Source: a virus. Taken from it: DNA of 40,814 nt. The notes under the pieces were generated by a model. That model worked only from the letters and a program-made list of their open reading frames with translations, made no database searches and was not told where the DNA came from. Of the stretch, positions 8,866-40,701 are shown piece after piece (within the stretch, counting starts at the first letter, position 1; the number at the start of each line of letters is the position of its first letter). The stretch is from IMG/VR virus record IMGVR_UViG_3300005917_000010, positions 1 to 40,814 of that record, one strand, 5' to 3'. The translations under genes and the position numbers were made by a program.

Positions 8866-8880
8866 GTCTGGTCCCTCCGT

Positions 8881-9003
8881 AGTCAGAGTAAGGCGGGATG
8901 GCGCGTTGCCCTCCCTGTCTCGTGATCGCTTATATACAATATACTACCAAGGACCCTGAATGAACCGGGGTTGAAAGAAGATTGTTCACTTATTTTCAAC
9001 CCC
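8881..9003 (-). promoter_or_regulatory. Early regulatory module, copy A
   Basis: 123 bp, gap-free match to 11302-11424. On the minus strand, in order: an inverted repeat GGGGTTGAAA/TTTCAACCCC (8994-9003 with 8967-8976), 21 nt, then AGTATATTGTATATAAG and GATCA (8923-8945), then a GC-rich hairpin-forming leader and the ribosome site of the 36-aa ORF. The AT-rich core is promoter-like, but no standard -35 is placed 17 nt upstream, so a phage-directed or activator-dependent promoter is possible. Confidence 0.65.
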
Positions 9004-9622: not shown

Positions 9623-10345
9623 TCAAGGACCCGTAGACTCGTCGGGGGTGTCGTGCTTCTTGCGGTATGCGAGTAACTCTTCGTTATATGTGTCGATTAG
9701 CGCGGAAAAAGCCATTGCCATCTGTACAGGCACCTGACCGTTTCCGAGAGCCTTGAGTCTGTTCGCGCGGTCTGGAACCTTCCCAGTCAGTCGTGGTATC
9801 ACACCAATATCTGCCGGATCGGTTGCCCACCATGTGCCGTCCATCACGGAACGTTCCCACTTCTCAACATCCGGGGTGGCGTTCAGATCAGTCCAGCCGA
9901 CCGGCCAACCCATCAACCAGGCAACCCAATCGGGGTTCAACGAGCCCCAACGATGCCCATCAAGACCTTCAGGTATAACCTTTTCGATCGGTGGGCTCCG
10001 CCCATTATACCCGAGGCAATCACGGATCAAATCGCCGCGACCGCCATGTTCACCTTCGCTTGCACAAGGCGTCCGCCACATCCGACGGCCAACAACCGTT
10101 GTGCGGTGCACCATGTTGAGAAACCATGATCCATAACCTTTCCCGCTTGTGGTGTGCACCTGCTTCGGCAGCACTGAACACACCCCATTCTGCATCATAC
10201 CCCATTTCGGCCAAGTCGCCGAGAATGCATCCGAAGTATCCGTGAGACCGGGCAAGCAAGCCTGTAACGTTTTCCAACCACGCGAATCGTGGTCGTATTC
10301 TGCAAATGGTGTCCCTTGTCGCTGGCCACATATTTCTTTCGTCAT
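9623..10345 (-). pseudogene. Cytosine-C5 DNA methyltransferase, C-terminal fragment
   Basis: The frame contains the target-recognition region and the C-terminal signature of C5 methyltransferases: MWRTPCASEGEHGG (the usual W.TP.ASD block), WVAWLMGWPVGWTDL, and RLKALGNGQVPVQMAMAF (motifs IX-X). Meaningful homology starts near 10130. The N-terminal ~70 codons of this open frame are the out-of-frame shadow of the central fragment. Catalytic motifs I, IV, VI and VIII are on separate frames upstream, so this part alone cannot be active. Confidence 0.8.
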
Positions 10346-10382
10346 TCTCTGTCTCTTGTTTCCCTGCTACGCTAAACGGCTG
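10050..10382 (-). pseudogene. Cytosine-C5 DNA methyltransferase, central fragment (motifs IV, VI, VIII)
   Basis: Reading from 10382 gives QPFSVAGKQ (the continuation of motif IV, whose PC is split by the break), then RPRFAWLENVTGLL (motif VI, ENV) and HHKRERLWIMV (motif VIII). The frame then stops at 10050. It is separated from the N-terminal fragment by 7 extra bases at 10384-10390 (between two copies of cac) and from the C-terminal fragment by a further one-base shift between about 10130 and 10080. A start codon at 10331 exists but would omit motif IV. Confidence 0.75.
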
Positions 10383-10389
10383 GCACAGT

Positions 10390-10857
10390 TCACGGGAATC
10401 CAGCAGTGATCATATCTGCATCACCACTAGATTCCTCAGCGTCCTTCCGTTCGATTGGGGTGTTTGTTTTGTGCCACTCATGGTGGCACTTCTGGCAAAG
10501 CCATTGGACTTCAAGTGGATTATTGTAGTCGGCATGATGGGCCTGTATTGCTGATCGTCCGTCAGCAAACGATCCAGAATCTCCGCATGTCTCGCATTTG
10601 TCAGGTTTAGTAAGTAGCCCCTTCTCTAGTGCTTTTTCACAAAGATTCTGTGCCCTATCTGATGACTTCAGTCCACCGCGATAGAAGTGGTTGTCTGCAC
10701 CGTATCGAACATTTGGCCTGAATGAGACACTCCGTCTCTTGAGGATGTAATACATTGACTGGCGCGTGACATTGTGGATGTCCGCAACGTCACCAACCGA
10801 CAGCCCTGCCTCGTATTGACGGACCGCTTCATCGTAGTCCTTTCTATGTGCTGGCAT
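10390..10857 (-). CDS. HNH homing-type endonuclease nested in the methyltransferase
   Basis: About 155 residues from an ATG with its own strong CGGAGG site, as is usual for homing endonucleases living inside other phage genes. The N-terminus has a helix-turn-helix (GLSVGDVADIHNVTRQSMYYILKRR). The C-terminus has the HNH core with a zinc-binding pair: CETCGDSG, then IQAHHADYNNPLEVQWLC, then CHHEWH. It would cut DNA at the uninterrupted methyltransferase allele or a nearby site. The 9-mer GCAGATATG occurs at both edges of the insertion. Its stop comes from the 7-bp insertion in the methyltransferase. Confidence 0.8.
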   Translation of the reverse strand: MPAHRKDYDEAVRQYEAGLSVGDVADIHNVTRQSMYYILKRRSVSFRPNVRYGADNHFYRGGLKSSDRAQNLCEKALEKGLLTKPDKCETCGDSGSFADGRSAIQAHHADYNNPLEVQWLCQKCHHEWHKTNTPIERKDAEESSGDADMITAGFP

Positions 10858-11106
10858 ATCTGCCTCCGTATTAGAGTTACTCCTAAAATACGAAAGGCTG
10901 ACAAACTCTGCAATGTCTTCGTCTGTAAGTTCTCGAATGTCCCCATAAATCGGCGCATCGTGTAGTAATCCATCACTGATGCGCTTCTTAAGGAGGTGTT
11001 GGCAGTAACCATCGGATTCCACATATGCAATAGTGTCCCACCCAAGGAGGTGTTGACTTGCGAGTTCGCCACCACCGGCACCAGAGAATAGAGATACGAC
11101 GTTCAT
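10390..11106 (-). pseudogene. Cytosine-C5 methyltransferase N-terminal fragment read through an HNH insertion
   Basis: The frame opens with the classic motif I, VVSLFSGAGGGELASQ, followed by YVESDGYC and YGDIRELTDEDI, then runs without a stop into an HNH endonuclease, and ends with GDADMITAGFP just before the Cys of the catalytic PC motif. Removing 10384-10390 restores GFPCQPFS. The segment from about residue 68 to 222 is foreign to the methyltransferase. The start at 11106 overlaps the upstream stop by ATGA. Confidence 0.8.
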
Positions 11107-11288
11107 ACTGTCTCCGCCTCATCTACCTTGTGGAGAAACTTCGGGATATCCTTCTCCGGCAGTTCAGAGACCGGGCGAGGTGACCACGGGTCTTCGAGTT
11201 CCAGCCGGATGACTCTACCGGACCGGACACTCTCGCTGGCCGCGATTGGGAGGCTGAACTCCGGGATGACCATGGTGTCGTTTTGCAT
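11103..11288 (-). CDS. Hypothetical protein, 61 aa
   Basis: First gene after regulatory module B, with GGAG 7 nt before the ATG. Small and acidic, with several Pro; no motif recognised. Coupled by ATGA to the methyltransferase start, so it may be a leader protein of that unit. Confidence 0.6.
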   Translation of the reverse strand: MQNDTMVIPEFSLPIAASESVRSGRVIRLELEDPWSPRPVSELPEKDIPKFLHKVDEAETV

Positions 11289-11301
11289 CGTGAATCTCCG
11301 T

Positions 11302-11424
11302 AGTCAGAGTAAGGTGGGAGGGCGCGCTGCCCTCCCTGTCTCGTGATCTCTTATATAGAATATACTATCGGAATACCCAAATGAACAGGGGTTGAAAGAA
11401 GATTGTTCATTTATTTTCAACCCC
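11302..11424 (-). promoter_or_regulatory. Early regulatory module, copy B
   Basis: Aligned base for base with copy A at 8881-9003. It contains the inverted repeat GGGGTTGAAA (11388-11397) / TTTCAACCCC (11415-11424), the AT-rich core AGTATATTCTATATAAG with GATCA (11344-11366) and a perfect hairpin GGGAGGGC/GCCCTCCC in the leader. It drives the 11288-to-9623 unit and separates it from the gene ending at 11449, so the inverted repeat may also end upstream transcription. Confidence 0.65.
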
Positions 11425-11448
11425 CCTGATAAGGTGGCTTACGTCAAG

Positions 11449-11871
11449 TCAATCCTTCAATACCGTAAACTCATCCGGTAGTTGTTTACGTGGGTTCCGC
11501 TTGCTCCACATCCTCACTGCCTCGAATGGAGTCTCACACAGCTTGTGACCCCACTTCGGATCGTAGACGACGGTGTGCAGTGTCCCGCTGTCGTGCATCA
11601 GGTAGACTGAACCTGGGCATTCTTCCGCGAGGTGGTGGAAGTCTTCGTGTGGTTCAAACACGAGCAACTTCACCTTGATGTGTTTCCACTCTTCGCGTGC
11701 CGTCTGACCATCGTCTGCGTTGAAGCACACACCGTCGTCTCGGAAAACTTCGATGTATTCCAGTGCGTCTTCAGGGTCGTGATCCCCTTCTGCAATAACA
11801 CAGAACAGATCGTCATTCGTCAGGTTCAGAACTTCCCATGTCAACCAGCGGTCTATCGTCTCAATGCTCAT
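11449..11871 (-). CDS. Hypothetical protein with one copy of a novel HDSGTLHTV domain
   Basis: 140 residues, acidic, starting after an AGGAAAGAGG site. The whole protein aligns with two successive segments of the protein at 13006-14076. Shared features are an N-terminal L/I-x-x-I-x-x-G block, a central Trp, then HDSGTLHTV followed by about 12 residues and A-V-x-x-W. No enzyme motif is recognisable; His and Asp in HDSG are conserved in two copies. Function unknown; see the finding on the three-copy domain. Confidence 0.6.
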   Translation of the reverse strand: MSIETIDRWLTWEVLNLTNDDLFCVIAEGDHDPEDALEYIEVFRDDGVCFNADDGQTAREEWKHIKVKLLVFEPHEDFHHLAEECPGSVYLMHDSGTLHTVVYDPKWGHKLCETPFEAVRMWSKRNPRKQLPDEFTVLKD

Positions 11872-11908
11872 TTTGTCCTCTTTCCTAAACTATGACCGAT
11901 GATGGATG

Positions 11909-12340
11909 TTACGTCAAGTCAGATTTACTTTTCCGTCTACCGCCACACTCATGGACATCACGTATGTTCCAGTGGTTGTCAGCTAGTTCTGTGTACCAAT
12001 CCCTGGATTCACCTATTGCCGTCTCGCCCCACTGCTTCTTGTCCATCTTGCTCGACGATACAGTATGTACCCCGGTCGTTCTGCGATCCTTTACCTTTCC
12101 ACATAACACATGGCAGTGCATCTTACCACTCGATCCTATCACCCAGACAACGAAGCAGTATATACGCTTCGGCAGACGGGTAACTGCTACCAAGCGCATT
12201 GACCTGATTGTGTGCTGATCTTTGGATGGAGTAACGAAGAAAGACACCGTAGATTCTATCTCCGCAAAGACCTGCTCAGGGATATCCACATCCCACCCAG
12301 CGTGGTAAGCGTAAAGTCTGAGTTTTTTCATTTTTCTCAT
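11909..12340 (-). CDS. Hypothetical protein, 143 aa
   Basis: The ORF has a basic N-terminus (MRKMKKLRLYAYHAGWDVDIPEQV), a beta-rich middle, and a charged C-terminus with His, Cys and Lys. The start is uncertain: 12340 has only a weak AAGAAGG site 8 nt upstream, and an ATG at 12331 is an alternative. No family recognised. Codon use seems more AT-leaning than its neighbours, as also for 16400-17056 and 17957-18454, which may mark more recent arrivals. Confidence 0.55.
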   Translation of the reverse strand: MRKMKKLRLYAYHAGWDVDIPEQVFAEIESTVSFFVTPSKDQHTIRSMRLVAVTRLPKRIYCFVVWVIGSSGKMHCHVLCGKVKDRRTTGVHTVSSSKMDKKQWGETAIGESRDWYTELADNHWNIRDVHECGGRRKSKSDLT

Positions 12341-12373
12341 GGAGCCCTTCTTAAACTAAGACCAAAATGAATG

Positions 12374-13009
12374 TTAGGGAAACCGACACCACGGGAGACT
12401 TCTCTTGATTCGCTTCATCAGACGCTTCCACCACGTCGGGTGGTCTTCATCCCATACCCGGTTCAGGCTGTCGATGGTCGCTGGTCCGAGGTCGTAACAG
12501 ATTGCCTCGTTTGGAGGTATCGTGTAGCCTGCATCGATTGACCACGAATGGCTCCCGGTAATTCTCGTGACGCTGGCGACCGCGCCGTTAGATGTCAGGA
12601 GTCGCGGGTTTGTTTCCGGGTTGCCTATCCGACCGGTCCCCTTCGCCTTCCAGAGGGTTGAAAACAACGCCATCTGAGATGTGATTACAGGACTAAGAAA
12701 TAACAGGACGGATGACGGTGTGAACGCATCCGCGTGACCCTTCGACGTGGCAAGGAGTTCGGATGTATCCCGGACCTCATGCAATTCCTCCTTCACTTCC
12801 TCGTCTGTCAATTCGACAAACCCGCGTCTCACAGCGTCGATAAGCATTGCGCGGATATACGACCACACCCGTTCTACATCCGGCTTCACCCTCGGCGGGT
12901 TGGCAATGACTACGTGGAGAATCGGGTACGTGATTTCGTAGCTTCTCAGGTTTGTGTCAGGGTCGCAGAAAGTCTCTTCCGTGAAGTCTTCGGGTCTCCA
13001 GATATTCAT
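12374..13009 (-). CDS. Hypothetical protein, 211 aa
   Basis: Coupled by ATGA to the gene upstream. The N-terminal half is acidic and helical (ELTDEEVKEELHEVRD), the C-terminal half is beta-rich with GSHSWSIDAGYTIPP, and the end is strongly basic (WWKRLMKRIKRSLPW), which could be membrane- or nucleic-acid-associated. The EICYDLGPATIDSL-like stretch near residue 170 suggests a phage structural or regulatory fold, but I have no assignment. Confidence 0.55.
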   Translation of the reverse strand: MNIWRPEDFTEETFCDPDTNLRSYEITYPILHVVIANPPRVKPDVERVWSYIRAMLIDAVRRGFVELTDEEVKEELHEVRDTSELLATSKGHADAFTPSSVLLFLSPVITSQMALFSTLWKAKGTGRIGNPETNPRLLTSNGAVASVTRITGSHSWSIDAGYTIPPNEAICYDLGPATIDSLNRVWDEDHPTWWKRLMKRIKRSLPWCRFP

Positions 13010-14076
13010 GTCTGTTCCTCCTCAAATATGTCATTCTGGTTGGTCTCCGGTTCCGCGCTCATCTCGAACCAATCCGCGAGACGTTTCAGCATGTATTCCG
13101 CGTCAATGACGTTGAACAGTGAAACCTCCATCCCATTAATCATTCCCTCTGCGTAGTCCCGGACCTCCGAGTCTGACGGGTACTCGTCGTCCACCTCAAT
13201 CGTCCGGTCAGGGACGGCCACGTTGACCGCCCACTCTCCGCTCTCCGAACGTTTGCAGGTTACTATCGCCGGTGAACTCCAGAACGCCGTCTCGACAGAC
13301 TGGAGAATATCAGCGATCAGTGATTCCCGGTACGTCATCTCGCCTCCTTTGCAGCGATCCATGGGTATCTGGTGATTTGTCCAGCATCTCCAATTCTGGA
13401 CAGCTTGCACAGCATGCTGTGAATAGACCTTCGGGGATGAACTGAACACGGTGTGCAACGTTCCGTCCGGGTGTGTGAAGTATTCCGTCACATCCTCATC
13501 TCTAGAGAAGTCTGGACGCTGTTGCGCCGGGAGTGTAAACGTCTTGAGGTACTGAACGACGGTAGTCCAGTCGGTGTAGACCACACCGTTCTCATCATCG
13601 TATGAATCACCGAAAACCTCTTGCACAGCGTATTCACAATCGGCACGGGAGAACGTTCCGGCCTTGATGATCCCGACCAGTTCATCATCGCTGTGGAATG
13701 GAGTCCAGCCGATAGCATCAGCGGTCCGGAGTGCCAGCAGTTCCTCCGGCGGGTTCAGGTCGGATAAAGCAGACCACAGTTCACAGGCATCAGCAGACCC
13801 GTCAGCGTATGGCATGAACTGCTCATCCCGCAGGATTGTGTACAGTAGCCCGGAGTCGTGCCGGACAAGCATCGCCTCATCGTGTCCGGCAGGTGGCGCA
13901 AAGGATACGAGCGGGACTATCTCGTGTACCCAATGTCCGATGGGTATAGTTTCCCCTCCTGTCTCTTTCCAGACGCTCTCGGTCTCTGTGAGGGACTGGA
14001 GGACGGTTTCTCGGCTATGCTCTCCCGGTAGAATTACCGAGATAATATCGCCGTCTGGGTTTCTGATGATCTTCAT
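13006..14076 (-). CDS. Hypothetical protein with two tandem HDSGTLHTV-type domains
   Basis: 356 residues from the ATG at 14076 (AGGAG 9 nt upstream, in the GGAGAACCAGAC context shared with other starts here); a longer form from 14154 would overlap the loader gene by 82 nt. Residues ~1-115 and ~125-230 are tandem copies of the domain also found at 11449-11871: RHDSGLLYTI and THPDGTLHTV, each followed by a conserved Trp helix. The last ~120 residues are different, acidic and partly helical. It sits directly after the DnaC-like loader (ATGA overlap), so a link to replication is conceivable but unproven. Confidence 0.6.
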   Translation of the reverse strand: MKIIRNPDGDIISVILPGEHSRETVLQSLTETESVWKETGGETIPIGHWVHEIVPLVSFAPPAGHDEAMLVRHDSGLLYTILRDEQFMPYADGSADACELWSALSDLNPPEELLALRTADAIGWTPFHSDDELVGIIKAGTFSRADCEYAVQEVFGDSYDDENGVVYTDWTTVVQYLKTFTLPAQQRPDFSRDEDVTEYFTHPDGTLHTVFSSSPKVYSQHAVQAVQNWRCWTNHQIPMDRCKGGEMTYRESLIADILQSVETAFWSSPAIVTCKRSESGEWAVNVAVPDRTIEVDDEYPSDSEVRDYAEGMINGMEVSLFNVIDAEYMLKRLADWFEMSAEPETNQNDIFEEEQT

Positions 14077-19539: not shown

Positions 19540-19594
19540 TGATCGCTTATATACAATATAGTATCGGATACCCTGAATGAATAGGGGTTGAAAG
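19540..19594 (-). promoter_or_regulatory. Early regulatory module, copy C
   Basis: CTTTCAACCCC (19584-19594) is followed after 21 nt by ACTATATTGTATATAAG and GATCA (19540-19562), as in A and B. The other arm of the inverted repeat is missing because the upstream gene ends at 19597. So the promoter-like half alone is conserved, which argues it, rather than the hairpin, is the core. Confidence 0.6.
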
Positions 19595-21454: not shown

Positions 21455-21508
21455 TGATCTCTTATATAGAATATACTATATTCCAGCCAAGAAAACAGGG
21501 GTTGAAAG
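21455..21508 (-). promoter_or_regulatory. Early regulatory module, copy D
   Basis: CTTTCAACCCC (21498-21508), 20 nt, then AGTATATTCTATATAAG and GATCA (21455-21477). The upstream arm is only partly matched (TTTTCAA near 21536). It leads the 21421-to-19597 unit. Confidence 0.6.
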
Positions 21509-21565
21509 AAGAAAAGTGAAGTATTTTCGATTTATTTTCAAATACAGGAAGGGAAGGAACTGGGT

Positions 21566-21985: not shown

Positions 21986-22855
21986 ATGCCAAAGGCGAAG
22001 GCACCGAAACCCGAACAGACGGCACCGGAGAACACCGGTCCAGAGATCGCGATCATCGAATACGGCGAGAAACGTGCATCCGAGTTCAAGGGCAACCCGA
22101 AGAACTGGCGAAGGCACCCGGAGGCGCAGAAGGACGCTGTCCGTGGATCGCTCCGCGAGCTGGGGTGGATCTCGCCTGTGATCGTGAATATCCGGACCGG
22201 AAACCTGATCGACGGTCATGAGAGGCTGGCACAAGCTATGGAGGCTGGGCAAGACTCGATGATCCCGTATATCACCGTGGACCTTCCGATCCACAAGGAG
22301 GCACTTGCGCTGGGTGTGTTCGACGTAATTACCGGGATGGCCGAAGGGGACAAGGATATACTGAACTCGCTCATGGAGGATATCAGGACAGATGACCCGG
22401 ACCTACAGGCATTGCTCGCTCAGGTGGCAGAGGATGAAGGATTGTTTGGAGACCCGGAGGAGCTCGACCCGGAAGAGCAGGAAGCCAACTACAGCCGGAA
22501 GATCAAGGCACCGATCTACGAAATCAACGGAGACGAACCTCCTGTATCTGACCTCTACGACGGGACCAAGGCCGCTACGCTTCGTAAGGAGATTGAGGCT
22601 GTAGAACTACCAGATGAGGTCCGAACGTTCCTGAATGCCGCCGCTGACCGCCACACAGTATTCAATTTCCGGAACATCGCGGAGTACTACGCACACGCGG
22701 ATGCGCCAACGCAATCCCTTATGGAGAAGTCAGCACTCATCATTATTGACTTTGAGAAGGCCATCGAGGGCGGGTTCGTAAGACTCAGTGAGAAGATGCT
22801 GGAATACGCCGGGATGAGTGAGCGGGCGGCTGCGGAGGAAAAGGATGAGGTCTGA
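21986..22855 (+). CDS. ParB/Srx-like N-terminal domain protein
   Basis: 289 residues from an ATG after GGAGG. Residues ~20-95 match a ParB/Srx N-terminal fold: NPKNWRRHPEAQKDAVRGSL, ELGWISPVIVNIRTGNLIDGHERL, the GxxR/H-type motif that in the family binds nucleotide and sometimes cleaves DNA. The C-terminal half is acidic and helical. No helix-turn-helix or plasmid partition partner is seen, so a phage-specific role such as DNA processing or modification is more likely than segregation. First gene of the late strand; its end overlaps the first glycosyltransferase by 11 nt. Confidence 0.8.
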   Translation: MPKAKAPKPEQTAPENTGPEIAIIEYGEKRASEFKGNPKNWRRHPEAQKDAVRGSLRELGWISPVIVNIRTGNLIDGHERLAQAMEAGQDSMIPYITVDLPIHKEALALGVFDVITGMAEGDKDILNSLMEDIRTDDPDLQALLAQVAEDEGLFGDPEELDPEEQEANYSRKIKAPIYEINGDEPPVSDLYDGTKAATLRKEIEAVELPDEVRTFLNAAADRHTVFNFRNIAEYYAHADAPTQSLMEKSALIIIDFEKAIEGGFVRLSEKMLEYAGMSERAAAEEKDEV

Positions 22856-23729
22856 CACCTGCGTGTTGATCGTCACGCACGGGAGGCCGGATAATCAGTT
22901 GACGACGAAGTCTCTTCGCAGGCAAGGATATACGGGTCGTATCATCTACGCGCTCGATGACGAAGACCCAACCCTGCCTGAATACATAGAGCAGTTCGGG
23001 GATGACGTGGTAGTCTTTTCAAAGGCTGAGGCGATAGCCCGAACCGACGACGGGCACAACTGGGCGGATCGCGCCTCCGTCGTCTACGCTCGGAACATGC
23101 TGTGGGACATAGCCCGAGAGGCCGGGTATCAGTATTTCATCGCGCTCGATGACGACTATTTCTGGTGGTACTACCGGTTCCTCAGTAACGGAACGTATGG
23201 GAATGTGAACATCGCGTCGCTCGACCTGCAATTCACAGCCATGGTCGAATACCTCTCGGAAACTCCGTTCTACTGTATCTCAATGTCTCAAGGTGGAGAC
23301 TACATCGGAGGCGGTGGGGAACGAAACAAAAAAAGTAACAAAAGTTCGATCACAGGGATACGGAAGGCAATGCAGGTCTACGTATGTGACGTGGATAGAC
23401 CTTACCAGTTCCGGGGCAAGTTCAATGAGGACGTAACCGCGTATTCGCATGAGTCGAGGATTGGGGTCTCATTCCTGACGCTTATGATGTCACAGGTTCT
23501 CCAGAAGCCAACGCAGGTGATTGAAGGGGGAACCTCCGAGCAATACAAGAAGTGGGGAACCTACGTGAAAACGTTCTTCACCGTGATGTATGCACCGTCG
23601 TGTTGTAAGGTGTCGATGATCCGAGACTTCAAGGACGGGCACGAAGGCGATTCACGTATCCACCACATAATCCTCGGAGACCACGCGCACCCGAATATCA
23701 TATCTGACAAATGGCGAAAGGAATCATGA
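22845..23729 (+). CDS. GT-A glycosyltransferase, GREB1/TAGT-like, copy 1
   Basis: 294 residues; ATG after GGAGGAAAAGG. Opening CVLIVTHGRPDNQLT, then IIYALDDEDPTLPEY, VVYARN, and YFIALDDDYFWWYYRF with the metal-binding DDD at 102-104. This is the pattern of the TET/JBP-associated (GREB1-like) glycosyltransferases that add sugars to hydroxymethylated pyrimidines in some phages. A close paralogue follows directly. The nucleotide-sugar donor and acceptor are unknown, and no TET/JBP oxygenase or hydroxymethyl-nucleotide synthase is visible in the window, so the acceptor might come from the host or another route. Confidence 0.75.
   Translation: MRSDTCVLIVTHGRPDNQLTTKSLRRQGYTGRIIYALDDEDPTLPEYIEQFGDDVVVFSKAEAIARTDDGHNWADRASVVYARNMLWDIAREAGYQYFIALDDDYFWWYYRFLSNGTYGNVNIASLDLQFTAMVEYLSETPFYCISMSQGGDYIGGGGERNKKSNKSSITGIRKAMQVYVCDVDRPYQFRGKFNEDVTAYSHESRIGVSFLTLMMSQVLQKPTQVIEGGTSEQYKKWGTYVKTFFTVMYAPSCCKVSMIRDFKDGHEGDSRIHHIILGDHAHPNIISDKWRKES
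22896..23025 (+). repeat. 130-bp block nearly identical to 23780-23909
   Basis: The two glycosyltransferase genes share this block with only two mismatches, without gaps, while sequence on either side is well diverged at the DNA level. It encodes LTTKSLRRQGYTGRIIY and DDEDPTLPEYIEQFGDDVV. The sharp edges suggest recent gene conversion. Confidence 0.85.
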
Positions 23730-24571
23730 TGAGGCTGGATACCTGCGTACTAATCCCGACGCATAAGCGACCCCACGCCCAGTTGACGACGAAGTCTCTT
23801 CGCAGGCAAGGATATACGGGTCGTATCATCTACGTGGTCGATGACGAAGACCCAACCCTGCCTGAATACATAGAGCAGTTCGGGGATGACGTGGTAGTCT
23901 TTTCAAAGGAGGATGCCGCCACACAGACGGATGATGGTCATAACTGGGGTGATCGTACCTCCGCTGTCTATGCCCGGAACTTCTCTTTCCGGGCGGTGAA
24001 AGATGCAGGTTATCGCTATTTCATCATGCTGGATGACGACTACTCAATGTGGTACTACCGGTTTCGGGAGGACCGGACGTATGGAGTCACGAGGATTAAG
24101 TCGCTTGATCTACTCTTCGCGTCGCTGGTCGAATACCTCTCGGAGGCTCCACTCAGATGTATATCAATATCACACTCTGGAGACCACGCCGGGGGCGGTG
24201 CGGGCAAGACTGAGATTGGGGCGAACCGGAAGGCACTCAGTGTGTACGTGTGCGATGTAGAACGTCCGTATCAGTTCCGGGGGATGATGGAGGATTATAT
24301 TACCCACATACACGAGCAGTCGCGTGGGAACACTATGCTCTCGGTGACGATGGCTCAGTATGTCTGTAAGGAAGCACTGCACCAGAACGAGGGCGGCCTG
24401 CATGACGTATACGAATCACGTGGCATGTATACCTCGTGCTTCTTCACCGTGATGTATGCACCGTCATGCTGTCGGGTAGACGCGCAGAGTCCAGACAAGA
24501 TGTATCACGCGATCAACGGGCCTGCTGCATATCCAAGGATCATCCACGAACAGCACAGAAAGGCACGATGA
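23726..24571 (+). CDS. GT-A glycosyltransferase, GREB1/TAGT-like, copy 2
   Basis: 281 residues, ATGA overlap with copy 1. Same motif order: CVLIPTHKRPHAQ, YVVDDEDPTLPEY, YARN, YFIMLDDDYSMWYYRF with DDD at 103-105, and the shared tail FFTVMYAPSCC. Outside the converted block the two proteins differ at many positions, in particular in the region after the DDD motif that usually shapes the acceptor site, so they may act on different sugars or in sequence. Confidence 0.75.
   Translation: MMRLDTCVLIPTHKRPHAQLTTKSLRRQGYTGRIIYVVDDEDPTLPEYIEQFGDDVVVFSKEDAATQTDDGHNWGDRTSAVYARNFSFRAVKDAGYRYFIMLDDDYSMWYYRFREDRTYGVTRIKSLDLLFASLVEYLSEAPLRCISISHSGDHAGGGAGKTEIGANRKALSVYVCDVERPYQFRGMMEDYITHIHEQSRGNTMLSVTMAQYVCKEALHQNEGGLHDVYESRGMYTSCFFTVMYAPSCCRVDAQSPDKMYHAINGPAAYPRIIHEQHRKAR
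23780..23909 (+). repeat. 130-bp block nearly identical to 22896-23025
   Basis: Second copy of the converted block, in the same place in the protein. The two mismatches (at the A-L versus V-V codons) change residues just before the DDEDP motif. Confidence 0.85.
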
Positions 24572-39877: not shown

Positions 39878-40701
39878 TGAAAACGCTCGATTCGGCAATT
39901 ATCACAGCGAAGAATGCGCTGTCCGTTGACGCTCCGTGGGTGATCCTCATTGAACTCACGCTGAAGGATACGACCGTCATCAGGATGGCACGGGAACGGG
40001 ACGACGTGAGGTATGATGGAGAGGACTACACGGCACTGCCGATGGCGTTCGGGACGGTCAACCAGAGCAGTGACGGGAGACTCCCATCGCTGACCATGAA
40101 GGTCGGGAACCCTTCCCGCGTGCTAGAACCCTATCTGCATACTACCGACGGTCTGTCAGGCTGTGCGGTCACCATGCTCCTGATATATGACCCGGCCAGT
40201 CCAGTACTCGCGGATCAGTGGCGGTTCATCATCAACAAGATTGCGTCCGATGAGGATTGGCTGGATGTTGAATTGGGATCACTGAACCTGTACCAGAAAA
40301 GGATTCCACGCGACCGGTATATTCCCGGATTCTGCCGTCACGTATTCCGGGGTGCAGTCTGTCAGTTTGCGGATGGAGATGTCGGTCCGCTGGATACGAT
40401 CAGCTTTACCGCGACAGATACCATCACGATACCTGGTGACCAGACCGGCGAGTTCGCGGAGGACCAGCGGATTGACGTATCTGGGAGTGCTGATAATGAC
40501 GGGGAATACACCATCGTCTCGGCTGTCTACTCCGCACCGAATACGACCGTGACCGTTGTGGAAGCAATCGCGACCGAAGCCGCCGGGGAAGATGTGACAA
40601 TCACAGTGATCTGTGACCACACGCTCCTGACCTGCCGGGCGAATGGCAACAGTGCGAGGTTCGGAGGTTCTCCCGGAATGGACGGTGGGGTATATGCCTG
40701 A
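39877..40701 (+). CDS. gpL-like minor tail protein with four cysteines (hub)
   Basis: 274 residues. N-terminal ~140 resemble tail-tip hub protein (WVILIELTLKDTTVIRMA; MKVGNPSRVLEPYLH). C-terminal part has FCRHVFRGAVC (Cys153, Cys162) and CDHTLLTC (Cys246, Cys253), the four-cysteine pattern that in lambda gpL binds a 4Fe-4S cluster. Between the cysteine pairs lies an ~80-residue beta insertion (TISFTATDTITIPGDQTGEF...). It ends in ARFGGSPGM. Overlaps NlpC by 8 nt. The order M-L-K-J is that of lambda. Confidence 0.8.
   Translation: MKTLDSAIITAKNALSVDAPWVILIELTLKDTTVIRMARERDDVRYDGEDYTALPMAFGTVNQSSDGRLPSLTMKVGNPSRVLEPYLHTTDGLSGCAVTMLLIYDPASPVLADQWRFIINKIASDEDWLDVELGSLNLYQKRIPRDRYIPGFCRHVFRGAVCQFADGDVGPLDTISFTATDTITIPGDQTGEFAEDQRIDVSGSADNDGEYTIVSAVYSAPNTTVTVVEAIATEAAGEDVTITVICDHTLLTCRANGNSARFGGSPGMDGGVYA

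Follow-up and report, generated by a model that had tools for sequence, protein, structure and literature searches.

The locus examined here raises the question of whether a DNA methyltransferase gene that is interrupted by an HNH endonuclease, and by a stop codon just ahead of its catalytic cysteine, can still make an enzyme. It lies in a viral record of IMG/VR (IMGVR_UViG_3300005917_000010, positions 1 to 40,814), and the whole stretch of 40,814 nucleotides is referred to below as the window.

Anatomy of the Interrupted Gene

Positions 9623–11106 of the minus strand encode an interrupted C5-cytosine methyltransferase, in which the N-half, the HNH protein, GFP, a short insert, and CQPFS follow one another. 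The features are as follows, in the order in which they are read.

10903..11106, minus strand: alpha N-half, C5-methyltransferase as far as DIRELTDEDIAEF, with motif I FSGAGGG (PF00145 profile 1–62; phrog_363)
10440..10857, minus strand: HNH endonuclease (HTH plus Cys4/HNH type), in frame with the methyltransferase N-half (phrog_2340, phrog_8446)
10395..10435, minus strand: 5′ stem-loop, GGAATCTAGTGGTGAT...ATCACTGCTGGATTCC (−24.9 kcal/mol, z −6.05)
10393..10395, minus strand: proposed take-off codon CCG, Pro of GFP (CCG, CCT, or CCA, never CCC, in 89 interrupted alleles)
10386..10392, minus strand: 7-nt insert TGAACTG, proposed to be bypassed (conserved in relatives)
10050..10385, minus strand: alpha C-half from the catalytic Cys codon TGC, motifs IV–VIII (PF00145 profile 71–164, E 2.5e-19)
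9623..10345, minus strand: beta ORF in the +1 frame, with motif IX (LNPDWVAWLMGWPVGWTDL) and motif X (LKALGNGQVP) (phrog_1008)

The methyltransferase N-terminus starts at ATG 11106 (minus strand), and the HNH protein also has a GGAGG and ATG of its own (10867–10855). Its gene matches phrog_2340 (endonuclease, 5.9e-19) and phrog_8446 (HNH endonuclease, 2.4e-12), and Pfam recognizes only the HTH. The frame shared by the N-half and the HNH protein ends at TGA 10392–10390, immediately past GFP. This stop, an A, and the proposed landing codon CTG (10388–10386) make up the insert, and CQPFS begins after the 7 nt in a different frame, with its Cys codon TGC at 10385–10383. Aligned with M.HhaI, the C-half begins at residue 81, the catalytic cysteine of that enzyme; the earliest in-frame ATG of the C-half is at 10331. 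The codons for ITAGF lie in the 3′ arm of the stem-loop, which also takes in base one of the Pro codon. The beta ORF matches phrog_1008 (DNA methyltransferase) at 5.9e-24.

A preliminary description of this DNA had already recognized motif I, the HNH gene with its own ribosome site, and the splitting of GFP from CQPFS by 7 bases, all of which we see on the minus strand. The extra bases are real, and their position moves by two bases, from 10384–10390 to TGAACTG at 10392–10386. The hairpin at 10435–10395, which adjoins the stop, had been overlooked, as had the conservation of the stop and spacer in about 100 relatives. GCAGATATG had been described as bounding the HNH insert on both sides. It is present twice (10863–10855 and 10419–10411), with the second copy in the loop region of the hairpin, and the printed flanks of the relatives show no apparent repeat of this kind; on these grounds we do not take it for a target duplication.

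Several other features of the window were observed. The methyltransferase region lies between the two copies of a 129-nt intergenic repeat (8875–9003 and 11296–11424, 88% identical, core TGATCNCTTATATANAATATACTA...GGGGTTGAAAG), of which shorter copies occur at 19540–19594 and 21455–21509; this is possibly a promoter or regulatory repeat. An imperfect 300-nt repeat near the ends (1–300 and 40379–40678, 88% identical) suggests that the contig may be a near-complete circular or terminally redundant genome. Tandem paralogues at 22844–23319 and 23728–24203, with proteins of approximately 290–300 aa, are at best 81% identical. A second IMG/VR contig (L086, 1–3251) is 100% identical to window positions 10607–13857 and ends inside the HNH gene, short of the junction, possibly at an assembly break caused by strain variation at the locus.

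A Methyltransferase Encoded in Two Frames

The C-terminal motifs had been described as following a one-base slip. What is seen instead is an overlapping alpha/beta gene pair: relatives have two long overlapping ORFs, with motifs I–VIII, and often X, in alpha and motif IX in a beta frame shifted by +1. As this layout is general, a frame slip or sequencing error was ruled out for the C-terminal part. It is seen in L002, L003, L082, and L083, of which the first two are the nearest relatives, Stenotrophomonas phages S72 and SOVA965, with motifs I–VIII and X in alpha. Overlap is the rule, since 90% of interrupted and 88% of intact relatives have a +1 frame that stays open over 100 codons or more.

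Motifs I–VIII in alpha and motif IX in an overlapping second frame are the arrangement of a two-subunit C5-methyltransferase. M.EcoHK31I and M.AquI are likewise divided, with motifs I–VIII in alpha and either motif IX (M.EcoHK31I) or motifs IX–X (M.AquI) in beta (PMC3404938). The window, whose beta ORF holds motif X as well, resembles M.AquI, and the two Stenotrophomonas phages have the M.EcoHK31I layout. Unlike in either known enzyme, alpha in the window has two additional interruptions, the HNH domain and the stop cassette.

A Stop-Bearing Insert at One Position in Many Relatives

When IMG/VR was searched for relatives of the window HNH, most close matches were found to sit within or just upstream of C5-methyltransferase genes, nearly all of which carry 6–10 nt between GGFP and CQ, with a stop first. 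A pattern scan blind to the HNH returned 104 stretches, of which 88 distinct alleles (TTC type) were retained, and its TTT variant added 12 more, including a divergent SFP-CQ family. The insert thus occupies a single position in 88 TTC-type and 12 TTT/SFP-type alleles and in the window, which amounts to approximately 100 IMG/VR C5-methyltransferase alleles with 6–10 nt between GGFP and the catalytic Cys codon. This conservation rules out an assembly error as the source of the 7-nt insert. The scan pattern demanded CQ, S, and AG, so the conservation of those residues partly reflects data selection; the HNH-based set, picked without the pattern, agrees with it. Viral contigs from IMG/VR, mostly metagenomic, account for all of the loci except one, L167, which is a bacterial MAG.

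The inserts are 6 nt (71 alleles), 7 nt (8), 9 nt (8), 10 nt (1), or 11 nt (1) long, the 11-nt case (L263) being a chance match that was excluded from later counts. They begin with TAA (42), TGA (33), or TAG (14), and since all three are used, it is the stop itself that selection acts on, at translation. Tandem stops are present in five long inserts, and the base after the stop is C in 59 of the 71 6-nt inserts. When the pattern was left unrestricted at the insert, every genuine insert-bearing methyltransferase began it with a stop, except L292 (the same as L088), which reads CGA TGA; the other stop-less matches were non-methyltransferases. Two further loci, L111 and L112, are without an in-frame stop. 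In L112 (3001–3387 and downstream) the stop-less insert is AGAGAGCG, the frame returns about 40 nt on, and the CQ motif reads CKG, which makes it a candidate decayed allele. A separate methyltransferase family with SFP-CQDLS (L437, L439, L440, L446–L449, and L451) has the same stop insert, together with a hairpin whose sequence is unrelated.

Interrupted alleles are often related, so the counts are not independent; on a poorly resolved tree we estimate about 42 changes of scar state, at least eight of them forced. The insert is present in one of 80 methyltransferases that were chosen solely for their resemblance to the window enzyme. No cassette was found among the GenBank phage and plasmid matches examined, and the site is uninterrupted in KT997847 and in the Porphyromonas phage BK068099.

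A Hairpin and Biased Codons Flank the Stop

No shuffle out of 200 folded as well as the window hairpin. Across the alleles, the 45 nt ending at the Pro codon were folded and compared with shuffles, giving a mean z of −4.6 for interrupted and −0.2 for intact alleles; z falls below −2 in 91% of the former and 6.5% of the latter. The 3′ arm extends to TTCC of the Phe-Pro codons in 86 of 89 alleles and stops short of it in three (L182, L191, and L195). Position −7, the synonymous third base of a Gly codon, is paired in 71 of 71 cases (C-G 36, G-C 31, U-A 3, U·G 1). In two gap-free alignments, compensatory double changes are more frequent than in any of 500 shuffles or any slid control, and in the SFP family the arm sequences differ while pairing is retained. 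G·U pairs (88) far outnumber A·C (20), which favors structure and selection at the level of RNA. A shorter hairpin, pairing position −10 with the third base of the Pro codon, was tried and rejected, as it shows no covariation and the true stem is longer. There was no signal of a 3′ hairpin downstream of the site, and a take-off stem-loop containing the stop was not found (z for the spanning fold −0.3, against −0.4 in intact genes).

The Pro codon before the insert is never CCC in the 89 interrupted alleles and is CCC in 35 of 77 intact ones; after thinning, the contrast is 0/47 versus 25/52 (P = 3e-9). This avoidance is consistent with the use of a particular tRNA-Pro isoacceptor. One allele, L092, has CAT as its take-off codon. 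At the other end, the last three nucleotides of the insert are YYN in 83 of 88 alleles, whatever the insert length, and ACN or GCN in the remaining five. Inserts of at least 7 nt end in YYN in 15 of 17 cases, and in these the base after the stop has no C bias. As C and U can both pair with the two G's of the anticodon, YYN is able to pair with tRNA-Pro. An exact CCN occurs in under half of the landing codons; the CTG of the window is a wobble match, pairing with tRNA-Pro only through U·G at position 2.

The Frame beyond the Stop Is under Selection

Past the insert, the frame is open in every matched locus except the chance match. Over codons 1–22, change by codon position is 0.16/0.11/0.47 in interrupted and 0.15/0.12/0.46 in intact alleles. 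Because interrupted and intact alleles recombine at the insert, the selection test was repeated on 15 pairs in which both halves are equally diverged; pN/pS is 0.18 in these pairs, and differences fall 36/26/115 by codon position. Selection on the beta frame alone would make first positions the most variable, which they are not. Purifying selection thus acts on the downstream frame, starting with the Cys codon.

No usual start codon is placed so that the Cys could be expressed from it. In the 6-nt alleles, the sole codon from the stop to the Cys is the landing codon, which is a non-start codon; no ATG, GTG, or TTG separates the two, and the first in-frame ATG typically lies 22 codons on.

Linkage to HNH Endonucleases and Movement as a Block

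An HNH gene is found within, or a short way upstream of, 54 of 89 interrupted alleles and 1 of 77 intact ones. These genes are of two types, that of the window and an HTH-HNH_3 type (PF13392) directly upstream; no HNH was recognized for 30 interrupted alleles whose upstream sequence extends over 700 nt or more. The HNH is essentially absent from plasmids. Interrupted alleles and their intact kin have a mean identity of 83% just downstream of the insert and 53% upstream, compared with 85% and 74% for intact and 84% and 77% for interrupted control pairs. The N-half and insert therefore travel together, and the breakpoint falls at the insert, as would be expected if homing is started by a break there. 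Interrupted and intact alleles may share 96% identity downstream, and some insertions are thus recent. The preliminary description had entertained a homing endonuclease, and both the linkage and the transfer as a block speak for that idea.

In two loci (L104 at 3644 and L168 at 3649), an HNH lies upstream of a methyltransferase with no insert and a substituted site (GGYPCQ and GGFPCGD), possibly another escape from cleavage.

A Possible Stop-Hop Mechanism

We put at roughly 0.7 the probability that a mobile homing-endonuclease element sits here in the gene of a two-subunit C5-methyltransferase, under the protection of a miniature programmed bypass, or "stop-hop," cassette; the "broken" gene probably still works. 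The ribosome would translate the methyltransferase N-half, here together with the in-frame HNH domain, as far as GFP. At the Pro codon, with a stop in the A site and a strong hairpin refolding just behind the ribosome, the peptidyl-tRNA-Pro would let go, the mRNA would slide by about 7 nt (6–10 in relatives), and the tRNA would re-pair on a Pro-like codon (CTG in the window), so that reading restarts at the catalytic Cys codon. Going from CCN to YYN in this way would yield an exact GGFP-CQPFS at any gap length, and in the product GFP would directly adjoin CQPFS, as in the native active-site motif. The window is predicted to give a methyltransferase that carries an HNH domain in the loop ahead of motif IV. 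Ribosomes that terminate would release an MTaseN-HNH protein, in addition to the HNH made from its own start. In the DNA itself, the HNH target would be split by the insert, leaving the cassette-bearing allele immune, and homing into intact alleles would carry the N-half and cassette along.

This reading draws on the sequence evidence of a conserved insert, the stop, hairpin covariation, landing-codon bias, HNH linkage, the breakpoint, and selection on the downstream frame, from which we infer the bypass event, HNH cleavage at the site, immunity, and enzyme activity.

Alternative Explanations

A selfish element might simply have killed its host gene, as the preliminary description proposed, with the stop insert serving only to guard against HNH cleavage and the methyltransferase recently inactivated. 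The high downstream identity of some interrupted and intact alleles does point to recent insertions, and phage methyltransferases are often dispensable. Nonetheless, nearly all alleles retain an in-frame stop though its identity varies, the hairpin is preserved through compensatory changes, the codons past the stop are under purifying selection in pairs diverged on both sides, and no decayed copies are seen, with the possible exception of L112; we regard loss of the gene as unlikely. Readthrough of the 6- and 9-nt inserts, or +1 frameshifting on the 7- and 10-nt ones, would add two or three residues where GGFP meets CQPFS. It would accord with the preservation of frame by 6-nt inserts and with the C that mostly follows their stops. 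It would require two mechanisms for the two length classes, pass tandem stops in five long inserts, and place the added residues in the catalytic loop, and the YYN ending at all lengths and the gene 60-like hairpin 5′ of the site also weigh against it; we consider it quite improbable.

That the N-part with the HNH, the C-part, and beta are separate proteins that assemble has a precedent of sorts in the two-polypeptide enzymes M.AquI and M.EcoHK31I. A split enzyme working in parts had been offered as the other possibility at the outset, and conservation of all parts in relatives as an observation that would speak against a broken gene. The parts are in substance so conserved. No ordinary start yields a fragment with the catalytic Cys, the first ATG in the 6-nt alleles being too far downstream, and the −1 frame from NTG has a median of 15 codons, which makes a split enzyme very improbable. 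An in-frame HNH in a conserved gene resembles an intron- or intein-borne element, and excision of the insert by RNA splicing or by an intein was considered. There is no Rfam match to group I or II intron RNA in the window and no intein Hint or splicing domain, Pfam giving HTH, methyltransferase, and weak zinc-finger matches only. Moreover, the stop insert is only 6–10 nt long and occurs also where the HNH is upstream of the gene or absent, so excision is scarcely credible.

Comparison with Known Systems and Implications

The stop-hop cassette invites comparison with T4 gene 60, in which a stop follows the take-off codon, structures refolding behind the ribosome favor a forward slide, and landing is on a matched codon; the gene 60 insert may protect against a linked homing endonuclease (MobA) encoded 5′ of it (PMC5009743, PMC11194080). 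Both have a stop directly after take-off (TGA 10392–10390 in the window, and a stop in nearly all alleles), a 5′ stem-loop, which here reaches the take-off codon in nearly all alleles and covaries, and a landing codon, putative here, just before the codon at which reading resumes. The cassette differs in its gap of about 6–10 nt rather than 50, its use of tRNA-Pro rather than tRNA-Gly, its often wobble-only landing match, a hairpin that adjoins the take-off codon, the failure to find a take-off or 3′ stem-loop, its location at the catalytic Cys codon of a C5-methyltransferase, and its roughly 100 alleles; bypass here is inferred from sequence.

Stop-hops in laboratory-made constructs (Weiss et al. 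1987, as related in PMC5009743) share, by that account, matched or near-matched codons around a stop, with 9 nt specifying one amino acid, and in 2016 the same review knew of no natural in-frame stop hopping (PMC5009743). The ShiLan domain is also an HNH inserted in a phage DNA methylase without an intron or intein, and has a disjunct distribution (PMC11855218). It is out of frame in an open methylase frame and has no stop insert (PMC11855218), whereas the HNH here is in frame with the methyltransferase and the frame is closed by a stop.

It seems likely that short stop-hop cassettes made up of hairpin, Pro codon, stop, 0–4 nt, and Pro-like landing codon form a widespread natural family, which allows phage C5-methyltransferases to bear an interruption at the catalytic codon that renders them immune to HNH homing endonucleases from at least two families. 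Gene callers break such genes into apparent fragments. Phage programmed bypassing rests almost wholly on T4 gene 60; if the stop-hop reading is true, about 100 natural variants in gap, stop, and take-off and landing codons would provide a family for comparative and experimental study, and would show how homing endonucleases can colonize a gene at its most conserved codons and still leave it working.
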